A stretch of DNA of 64,000 nt, taken from the NCBI RefSeq assembly GCF_900113285.1, contig NZ_FOOT01000004.1, forward strand, positions 372,001 to 436,000. The letters are read 5' to 3'. Shown piece after piece: positions 62,056 to 64,000 of the stretch. The position numbers and the translations under genes are program-made. Under the pieces are notes generated by a model, which saw nothing but the letters and a program-made list of their open reading frames with translations, was not told the origin of the DNA and did no database searches. Origin of the DNA: Pontibacter chinhatensis (GTDB lineage Bacteria; Bacteroidota; Bacteroidia; Cytophagales; Hymenobacteraceae). Each line of letters opens with the position of its first letter. Position 1 is the stretch's first letter.

Positions 62056-62829
62056 TTACCCAAAGATTGTCTCAGCGAATTTCTCCAGGGCTTTGCGGGT
62101 TTCGTAGGTTCGCTCAAACATGCCCATGTGGCCGGTCTTCTCCAGGAAGTAGACCATACTGTTGCCCGGCAGGTGGCACTGTTCCAGCGCCTTGTCCATT
62201 GGCACGGCGCCATCCTCCTTACCAAAGATGAACAGCACCGGATACTTTGCCTCGCGCAGCACCTGGGCACGGTCGGGGCGGTCGCGCATGGCGGCCAGGG
62301 CCCCGGTTATACTTTCTTTAGGCGTGGCTTTGCCGATGTTTTTCATCAGCTCTATTTCCTGCTGCAGCCGCGCGCGGTTCCCCTCATAAAAGAGCGGCTC
62401 TGTGAAGGGGTTAATGAAGTTGTCCACGCCGTGGCGCTCCACAAAATCTATACTTTTGTTGCGTTGCTCTTTCTTCTCATCGGTATCCGGCAGGGCAGAG
62501 GAGTGGAAAAGGCAGAGGCCGCGGAGCAGGTGGCCATACTTTTCGGCAAAGGCCATCCCCACATAGCCACCCATCGAGTGGCCTACCAAGAGGCAGCTTT
62601 TTATACTTAGCTCGTCCAGCTGCCGCTTCACTTCGTCGGCCATACTTTCCATACTATAGCTGCCGGAGTTTGGGGTGTTGTCGCCGAAGCCGGGCAGGTC
62701 CAGGGCCAGGATTCTGAACTTCTGCTGCAGCGGCTGGGTAAACTCAGCCCATACTTCTTTGCTCTCGCAGAAGCCGTGCAGGAAAACCAGCGCATCGCCG
62801 GAGCCGTGGTCGGTGTAGGTGTTTGTCAT
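62056..62829 (-). CDS. Alpha/beta hydrolase
   Basis: The 257-residue soluble hydrolase has ALVFLHGFCESKEVW, the nucleophile elbow LLVGHSMGGYVGMA, Asp in FIFGKEDGAVP and His in EKTGHMGMFE, the classic Ser-Asp-His set. Close relatives are BioH/MhpC-like esterases; the substrate is unknown. Its start codon abuts the outer inverted repeat of the DUF559 element (62833), so that element forms its leader or promoter region. Confidence 0.9.
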   Translation of the reverse strand: MTNTYTDHGSGDALVFLHGFCESKEVWAEFTQPLQQKFRILALDLPGFGDNTPNSGSYSMESMADEVKRQLDELSIKSCLLVGHSMGGYVGMAFAEKYGHLLRGLCLFHSSALPDTDEKKEQRNKSIDFVERHGVDNFINPFTEPLFYEGNRARLQQEIELMKNIGKATPKESITGALAAMRDRPDRAQVLREAKYPVLFIFGKEDGAVPMDKALEQCHLPGNSMVYFLEKTGHMGMFERTYETRKALEKFAETIFG

Positions 62830-62880
62830 GAGATCAGGATTTACAGGATAGCAAAGTTAATGGATACGAAACTTCTGCGG

Positions 62881-62925
62881 TACCGGGTCCAACCACCCCT
62901 ACCCCTCCTTATCCAAGGAGGGGAG
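62881..62925 (+). repeat. Left inner inverted repeat of the DUF559 element
   Basis: It begins TACCGGGTCCAACCACCCCT and ends in the palindromic core CCCCTCCTTATCCAAGGAGG. It is the inverse of 63361-63406, with one missing A and one T/G difference. Confidence 0.85.
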
Positions 62926-62996
62926 CTTTTTATACTTGTTTCTCTGTCTTCCGTTTAGTAAAATGCCTTTATTCGTAACGATAGCACAACTTCGTA

Positions 62997-63356
62997 ATGA
63001 TGGCGCATCATAACCGTAAATACCTGAAGGATAACCGTAAAGCATTGCGTAGCAATTTAACTCCTGCTGAAGCCGAATTATGGAAATATCTCAAAGGGGG
63101 CAGCATGGAAGGTCGGAAATTTAGACGACAACATAGTGTCGGAAATTATATGCTCGATTTCTACTGCCCGTCGGAGTATTTAGCTGTTGAATTAGATGGT
63201 CAGGTGCATTATCATGCTGCAGCCGAGTACGCAGATCGTGAAAAGGATTTATACTTGAACAACTTAAATATTCAGGTTATTCGCTTTGAGAATAAGGACG
63301 TGTTTGAAAACTTAGAAGCTATACTACAGGAAATCCGCAGCAACTTTAGGAAGTAG
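62997..63356 (+). CDS. DUF559 endonuclease-domain protein
   Basis: The 119-residue protein is a stand-alone DUF559 (Vsr/restriction-like nuclease fold): RSNLTPAEAELWKYLKGGSM, EGRKFRRQHSVGNYMLDFYC, SEYLAVELDGQVHYH, then AEYADREKDLYLNNLNIQVI and RFENKDVFENLEAIL. The Asp in LDFYC, Glu-Leu-Asp-Gly, and Gln-Val-His positions correspond to the expected nuclease active site. The whole gene is framed by inverted repeats ending 4 bases after its stop. Alternative start is the next ATG (63000). It may nick or cut DNA; mobility of its own repeats is inference. Confidence 0.9.
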   Translation: MMAHHNRKYLKDNRKALRSNLTPAEAELWKYLKGGSMEGRKFRRQHSVGNYMLDFYCPSEYLAVELDGQVHYHAAAEYADREKDLYLNNLNIQVIRFENKDVFENLEAILQEIRSNFRK

Positions 63357-63360
63357 AAAA

Positions 63361-63406
63361 CTCCCCTCCTTGGCTAAGGAGGGGTTAGGGGTGGTTGGAC
63401 CCGGTA
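63361..63406 (-). repeat. Right inner inverted repeat of the DUF559 element
   Basis: It starts CTCCCCTCCTTGGCTAAGGA and ends GGTTGGACCCGGTA, four bases after the DUF559 stop. Its palindromic core could double as a terminator. Confidence 0.85.
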
Positions 63407-63451
63407 TGACAATTGAGCTAATTCCCTAATCCTGTAAATCCTGATTCAGAC

Positions 63452-63515: not shown

Positions 63516-64000
63516 TCATACTTTCACCGGCACACCTGCCAGCTCGCGCACGGTATTCTCGATGTCGATTGGGGCGAAGCCTGCCTCGTGCTGCAGCTCC
63601 AGCTGGGAGCCGTGCTCGAAGATTCTGTCCGGAATTCCCAGGCGCTTTACCTGCGAGGTATAGCCGTTGTCGACCATAAACTCGAGCACCGCGCTTCCGA
63701 AACCGCCCTGCAGGCAGCCGTCTTCTACGGTTATCACTTTCTCATACTTCGAGAAAATGTGGTGCAGCAGCTCCTCGTCCAGCGGCTTGGCAAAGCGCAT
63801 GTCGTAGTGGCCTGGGTGGATGCCGTCGTGCGCCAGCTTCTGGCAAACCTCCACGGCGTAGTTGCCCACGTGCCCGAAAGTAAGTATGGCCACTTCCTCG
63901 CCTTCCTGGATGGTGCGGCCTTTGCCTACCTGTATAGGCGCTAGCGGCGTGCGCCAGTTCGGCATCACACCCTCGCCACGGGGGTAGCGGATCGTGAACG
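63516..64000 (-). CDS. dxs: 1-deoxy-D-xylulose-5-phosphate synthase (3' part)
   Basis: The frame is open to the window edge, so only the C-terminal ~160 residues are visible: TIRYPRGEGVMPNWRTPLAP, AILTFGHVGNYAVEVCQKLA, GIHPGHYDMRFAKPLDEELL, ITVEDGCLQGGFGSAVLEFM and LGIPDRIFEHGSQLELQHEA. These are typical of the transketolase C-terminal domain of DXS, which condenses pyruvate with glyceraldehyde-3-phosphate for isoprenoid and thiamine/pyridoxal precursors. The catalytic N-terminal part lies outside. Alternatives (E1 of pyruvate dehydrogenase) are less likely given RYPRGEG. Confidence 0.9.
   Translation of the reverse strand, partial: FTIRYPRGEGVMPNWRTPLAPIQVGKGRTIQEGEEVAILTFGHVGNYAVEVCQKLAHDGIHPGHYDMRFAKPLDEELLHHIFSKYEKVITVEDGCLQGGFGSAVLEFMVDNGYTSQVKRLGIPDRIFEHGSQLELQHEAGFAPIDIENTVRELAGVPVKV

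Follow-up and report, generated by a model that had tools for sequence, protein, structure and literature searches.

In the genome of Pontibacter chinhatensis (labelled G000 below) a small DUF559 nuclease gene on contig NZ_FOOT01000004.1 is packed between two nested inverted repeats, which raises the question of what kind of element such a unit represents and which enzyme acts on its ends. The original prediction likened it to REP-associated transposase units in which a Vsr-like nuclease stands in place of the Y1 transposase. The window, that is, the whole stretch of DNA analysed, comprises 64,000 nt, and its relevant features are collected in Table 1.

Table 1. Repeats, nuclease gene and neighbouring genes of the unit, with positions in the window
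Feature	Position	Strand	Remarks
Alpha/beta hydrolase neighbour	62056..62829	-	site marker
Outer repeat, left arm	62833..62849	+	perfect 17-nt inverted repeat; separate family, TCTGAATCAGGATTTACAGGATT type
Inner repeat, left arm, type A	62881..62925	+	45 nt; tag CCAACCACCCC facing outward, then hairpin with 9-bp stem
Left-arm hairpin	62902..62923	+	9-bp stem, 4-nt loop; also terminator-like
DUF559 nuclease gene, clade A	62997..63356	+	119 aa; PF04480 E 2.6e-28
Inner repeat, right arm, type A	63361..63406	-	46 nt; hairpin 63363-63384, then outward tag GGGGTGGTTGG
Outer repeat, right arm	63429..63445	-	separate family; continues as ...GATTCAGACA
dxs-type neighbour, C-terminal part	63516..63998	-	leaves the window; TIGR00204 dxs E 3.5e-36, partial; Transketolase_C

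The repeats and the enclosed nuclease

The inner arms are reverse complements of each other with one substitution and one indel, as predicted, and their similarity extends to 62937/63351 via a 2-nt gap and one mismatch; the local score of this alignment was 44 versus a maximum of 14 in 2000 random window pairs of like geometry. The outer arms pair without mismatch. The predicted AT-richness was also found, the G+C content being 0.426 in the unit and 0.408 in the ORF versus 0.53 in the window and 0.564 and 0.584 in the flanks. Since the minus-strand hydrolase begins with its start codon at 62829, the unit adjoins it with a gap of three bases between gene and outer repeat. DUF559 is indeed the sole gene of the unit: neither a transposase-family gene, sought as the mark of an insertion sequence or MITE, nor the Y1 HUH transposase gene of a REPtron lies between the ends. 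Both hairpins of the unit score as terminator-like.

The part of the prediction that did not hold is the treatment of the two nested repeats as one unit. At the hydrolase/dxs site, which could be read in 30 of 41 genomes, the outer repeat has at least one copy in 19 of the 30 loci (scanned in full), is found on both strands in seven of them without any type A repeat, and in three genomes (G012, G014, and G032; loci L104, L110, and L116) its TCTGAATCAGGATTT... type encloses, at this same site, a GxxExxY gene instead of DUF559 (TIGR04256, E 1.7e-34, 5.1e-39, and 2.1e-38, respectively). Because the outer repeat occurs independently and encloses another gene, the nesting is one of two repeat systems, one within the other; the outer is presumably the older, being more widely spread at the site. 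GxxExxY appears as a second small protein with a repeat family of its own. The names dxs, leuS, methylase, and GxxExxY used here were assigned first by eye and then by family searches.

The 119-aa protein matches DUF559 with 98.5 bits against a cut-off of 20.6. Its AlphaFold2 model (pLDDT 90.6) was matched by Foldseek to the endonuclease-like structure 3hrl (E 5.8e-8) and to the catalytic domain of the homing endonuclease I-Bth0305I (3r3p; E 1.9e-3, TMt 0.75), and a profile search agreed on both structures (3r3p, E 3.1e-6), while Vsr itself was matched weakly (1vsr, Foldseek E 0.12). Judged from this predicted structure, the nuclease shares the fold of I-Bth0305I and belongs to the EDxHD-Vsr nuclease superfamily. 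Passages of PMC9403480 and PMC3943268 describe EDxHD nucleases, including I-Bth0305I (Taylor et al. 2011, as cited there), and the catalytic relatives of the DUF559 nuclease are homing endonucleases; a section on inteins in PMC9403480 places a DUF559-containing gene in the EDxHD group. Six residues are near-invariant, namely, E25, D54, D67, and H71 (85 of 86 sequences each) and E65 and D80 (86 of 86), and dN/dS was 0.05–0.25 in the ten scorable pairs of twelve, two being saturated, so the nuclease is under purifying selection. The loci closest to the protein, among the best 80 of at least 582 confirmed matches, are those of Pontibacter.

Several other identities were considered and set aside. 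A defence-system search with PADLOC gave weak partial matches only; plasmid carriage was seen in 9 of 72,556 records, four of the nine exceeding 1.6 Mb; and no known RNA family reached the gathering score in ten loci.

Nuclease clades and palindrome types

In the genus five nuclease clades and five palindrome types (A–E) were distinguished. The types were defined on 92 loci, five of them from outside the genus (L010 and L042 being one place), of which 87 carry an inverted repeat at E up to 0.01. Typed units make up 87 of the 100 DUF559 matches of the genus; the 13 untyped ones, mostly fragments, are L012, L331, which has E patterns on both sides, and 11 further places. The predicted association of matching flanks with DUF559 genes was found when the genome and its relatives were searched: with fuzzy patterns (up to 2 mismatches for C, D, and E, zero for A and B) 85 of 87 typed units (A 23/23, B 14/14, C 16/16, D 19/21, and E 13/13) have the palindrome type of the nuclease's own clade within 300 bp of the gene on one or both sides, and 58 have it on both sides in inverted order. 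The nearest arm is of foreign type in three units (L079, L080, and L082), and L093 has none. The patterns had been written from flanks already seen, so the definition of type and clade was not a blind one. A tree of 88 nuclease proteins, four of them from outside the genus, into which the repeats did not enter, requires 9 changes of type label versus 55.7 after shuffling (0 of 200), though with few columns and 36 open forks; the A labels and the B labels each form one side of a starred branch.

All five types bear a G-rich tag 3' of the hairpin (A, GGGGTGG; B, GGGGGAGGT; C, GGGGGATGA; D, GGGGTGT; and E, GGGGTGGGT), which, as judged by eye, faces outward in units of types A and B and inward in C, D, and E. 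Like a REPtron, the gene is flanked by its own dispersed palindrome type. The 5' GTAG foot of REPtrons was absent from the sequences read, where the tag is 3' and differs among the five types, and only certain copies have the string GTAG at their 3' foot.

The palindromes are far more numerous than the genes. In the P. chinhatensis genome BLAST gave 86 type A matches on both strands (a first pass scored 40 of 226 candidates), and an exact pattern search gave 132; the same genome has three DUF559 genes of full length and a further match that is weak and partial. The reversed-pattern control gave 0 matches in all 41 genomes. At least one DUF559 match is present in 42 of 59 genomes searched, this one counted. 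Pattern matches in 37 genomes, unit arms included, numbered 1039 for A, 98 for B, 696 for C, 519 for D, and 584 for E, along with 87 gene units. Four genus genomes without DUF559 have 0, 1, 3, and, in G005, 27 matches of all types.

In tests that ignore phylogeny, with clade labels taken from protein motifs and corrected by the nuclease tree, solitary repeats were commoner where the matching nuclease is present for types A, C, D, and E (p 0.025, 0.026, 0.016, and 0.010, respectively), with no such enrichment for type B (p 0.39). In correlations that likewise ignore phylogeny, nuclease E tracks all five repeat types (rho 0.34–0.50) and nucleases A and B also track repeat E (0.36 and 0.39), so that specificity across genomes is blurred. 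Solitary copies occur in many genomes without their matching nuclease; the P. chinhatensis genome holds 62 type E matches, while a typed E gene is absent. Solitary A repeats tend to share their spacer length (one or two bases) with the arms around the resident gene (rho 0.58, p 0.012, n=18 of 19 genomes), the two-group form of this test being not significant (p 0.072). Across four stretches that total 841 kb, same-type inverted pairs at a distance of 250–1200 bp were confined to the DUF559 units of G000 and G013.

In one region of the genome (G000:C15:280258-314030; L246-L248) the intergenic 3' regions are mosaics of several repeat types, in which A is combined with D or E in direct orientation; G000 and G013 differ in these mosaics. 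They have diverged too far for clean empty sites to be recognised, and a comparison of the two genomes yielded no clean insertion/empty-site pair for any solitary repeat.

Abundance of this kind could have another cause: the palindromes might be spread by a different enzyme, for example, a RAYT, with the DUF559 genes as passengers that settle there, perhaps because such sites are safe or recombinogenic. In favour of this, 34 of 41 genus genomes have Y1_Tnp genes, solitary repeats are also found where the matching nuclease is missing, and a part of PMC6006769 describes double-foot REPs with TnpAREP subclass 2.4 as abundant in Bacteroidetes and Cyanobacteria. However, none of 30 Y1 loci (those returned out of all matches, with crude frame ends) has types A–E within 300 bp, 12 of the 30 having an inverted repeat of other sequence, and a match between clade and type is not expected of a passenger. 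This explanation is consequently considered unlikely, and RAYT was rejected as the mover of types A–E. The likeness to REP-associated transposase units proposed at the outset stands, since the repeats track DUF559 clades, are dispersed, and were absent from the 30 Y1 loci examined. Five of the Y1_Tnp loci (L277, L279, L280, L281, and L288) have a GCTGGCGCGAGCTTGCAGCTCGTGCC-type inverted repeat in common, and seven others have inverted repeats of different sequence.

Genomic sites and distribution of the units

At the hydrolase/dxs site G000 and G013 have the DUF559 gene in one orientation, G023 and G035 in the opposite one; the copy of the P. chinhatensis genome is not freshly mobile, as these four genomes have the gene at the same site. 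The search for sites lacking the unit, which the original prediction had recommended, found 26 of the 30 genomes read without the gene (the site of G028 being cut by a contig end), among them G021 with a tag-hairpin-tag, G027 with an A pair, and G018 with one A repeat.

Contexts without a common flank were counted as 16 for 23 units of type A, 6 for 14 of B, 9 for 16 of C, 20 for 21 of D, and 9 for 13 of E, counts that divergence can inflate; several units, as those of type B show, stand at conserved sites. In G011 two D units are alike over 598 bp (96.3%, gap-free) and the similarity stops outside, which makes them a recent duplicate; their loci have two further short matches elsewhere. Aligning such copies had been proposed for defining the unit ends, and this succeeded on one side only: on the right the end is well defined, immediately beyond the D arm, while on the left it runs into an A repeat, and the exact ends are therefore not fixed by this pair. 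A clean base-level pair of empty and filled sites was not obtained from G000 versus G013, the leuS site, or the G011 duplicates, and a target-site duplication was not established.

Whole units are also found in frame within genes, namely, in leuS of G054, G055, and G106 and in Eco57I-type methylase genes of G049, the host-gene family having been checked for G055 and G049. One leuS site in G055 and G106, which belong to the same genus, holds two DUF559 domains that are 50% identical, whereas the LeuRS sequences are 99% identical over an 85-aa query; in G052 the same site holds a palindrome pair without a gene, and a short linker occupies it in 11 of 14 pattern-parsed leuS genes (of 30 loci). 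At one leuS site L134, L302, and L319, from genomes of the order, show differing DUF559 units or a gene-less palindrome pair, and the DUF559 units within Eco57I-type methylase genes at L138, L139, and L338 lie directly ahead of the DPAxGSG motif. At L338 the DUF559 gene is 3' of a DUF1156 CDS and may split it. A leuS-like frame of G040 (L140) carries a degenerate DUF559-like domain at another position, which may be domesticated, since its translated flanks have no palindrome-like stretches.

Beyond the genus, the best 80 of at least 582 confirmed DUF559 matches were taken as named loci, of which 76 were used and 4 dropped for short flanks. In 36 of the 76 an inverted repeat flanks the gene with E no higher than 1e-4, versus 0 of 320 control intervals, and at the other 40 none passed this threshold. 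According to the record titles, the loci with such repeats belong to Bacteroidota, Acidobacteria, Desulfuromonadales, Nitrospirae, Patescibacteria, and a cyanobacterium. A pyrimidine-rich hairpin, by a descriptor written after viewing 23 flanks, lies within 250 bp at 60 of the 76 loci (16 without) versus 12 of 456 controls, and on both sides at 26 versus 0 of 456.

In E. coli TOP10 the DUF559 gene ycjD stands between sapF and fabI with an inverted palindrome pair just downstream (L341:2121-2910). Of 5426 E. coli genomes, 5375 contain a 43-nt piece of this palindrome, the median being 19 places per genome. The link is weaker here because ycjD is not enclosed by the palindrome on both sides. Strains without ycjD beside sapF (L340 and L342) were considered as empty sites and rejected, as efflux genes are found there instead.

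The stability of certain sites suggests another reading, also judged improbable, in which the nuclease has been domesticated by the host to process or guard the repeats (in chromosome structure, at mRNA ends, at replication hairpins, or as self-marks in defence) and mobility belongs to the past. Consistent with it are the low dN/dS, the long-lived sites of types B and C, the sapF-ycjD-fabI query stretch, at least 80% of which is present in 3362 of 5426 E. coli genomes, and the terminator-like score of both hairpins. However, the presence of the gene is patchy among genomes and some copies carry stops, the 21 D units stand in 20 contexts, a recent duplicate and leuS insertions exist, and PADLOC yielded only the weak partial matches mentioned above. 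Even less probable is a static, vertically inherited gene of a single site with incidental repeats: four genomes do have the gene at the hydrolase/dxs site, but this reading is contradicted by the absence of the gene there from 26 of 30 genomes and by the 16 contexts of A units. Nor was the finding encountered that would have refuted the original prediction, the unit at one site in all relatives with no other copies, many other copies being present. That the palindromes are ordinary intergenic terminators which converged in sequence and flank the gene by coincidence has next to no likelihood, since, for all their terminator-like score, they are type-specific, no such inverted repeat occurs in 320 control intervals, and in-frame copies inside genes cannot be terminators.

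Proposed mechanism and related systems

The association of nuclease and palindrome, its type specificity, the dispersal of the palindromes, and the conservation of the enzyme were shown. According to the match of clade and type, the dispersal, the many contexts, the in-frame units, the duplicate, and the purifying selection, the unit rather probably belongs, as an autonomous member, to a REP-like system of selfish repeats in which a DUF559 nuclease takes the place of the Y1 (RAYT) transposase. Presumably the nuclease acts on its own palindrome by binding, cutting, and homing. It would bind the cognate palindrome, in double-stranded form or folded into a hairpin in single-stranded DNA, and nick or cut at the tag or stem, after which host repair would copy a palindrome-bounded segment into the break, giving new units when the gene is included and gene-less pairs and solitary palindromes when it is not. 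In this the nuclease would behave like a homing endonuclease that uses its own repeat as the homing site. The geometry of the arms may account for both the inverted and the gene-less state by plain recombination: as the two hairpins also form a direct repeat, recombination between hairpins would delete the gene and leave a tag-hairpin-tag, as at the G021 site, and recombination between arms would invert it, as the orientation in G023 and G035 suggests.

With a little less than an even chance, the hypothesis may be extended to DUF559 as a second, ancient REP class of several phyla, perhaps including E. coli (ycjD), in which a single-domain EDxHD-fold nuclease, in place of an HUH transposase, propagates clade-specific palindromes by cutting and repair, GxxExxY with the outer repeat forming a third such class. 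The finding that each nuclease branch has its own repeat type, scattered by the dozen, points to bacterial selfish repeats of a kind not yet described, which may have a relative in E. coli. No paper joining DUF559/PF04480 to REP-like repeats appeared among those listed in searches of the open-access literature, and prior notice in subscription papers or preprints is possible. The existence of abundant palindromic repeats for which no mover is known poses an open problem, and the pairing with DUF559 offers a candidate enzyme for repeats of this sort, a testable substrate for a "domain of unknown function", and a new compact nuclease-target pair, which through ycjD could be tested in E. coli.

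With REP/RAYT (TnpAREP) REPtrons, as described in parts of PMC3733652 and PMC6006769, the system has in common small tagged palindromes that are high in copy number and frequently form inverted pairs, a single dedicated nuclease gene between the repeats with enzyme subclass matching repeat type, and some in-frame insertions. It differs in the enzyme, which has a predicted Vsr/EDxHD fold instead of being an HUH Y1 transposase, and in the foot, theirs being a 5' GTAG and the present one a G-rich tag 3' of the hairpin; moreover, the Y1 loci examined in the genus have other repeats or none. The EDxHD homing endonucleases share the catalytic fold predicted here (3r3p), whereas the present nuclease is free-standing, of about 120 aa, without an extra DNA-binding domain, and lies outside any intron or intein, framed by palindromes that are themselves dispersed. 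Vsr mismatch endonuclease has a related fold by the weak match to 1vsr and differs in genomic context. Gene-less inverted pairs are common to MITEs and Rickettsia palindromic elements (RPE), the latter also being inserted in frame into protein genes according to a part of PMC3733652; in contrast to both, the present system has a coding member with a nuclease gene that bears the same ends. In G030 two similar gene-less A pairs (L147 and L148), whose spacer sequence is seemingly common, appeared MITE-like by eye.
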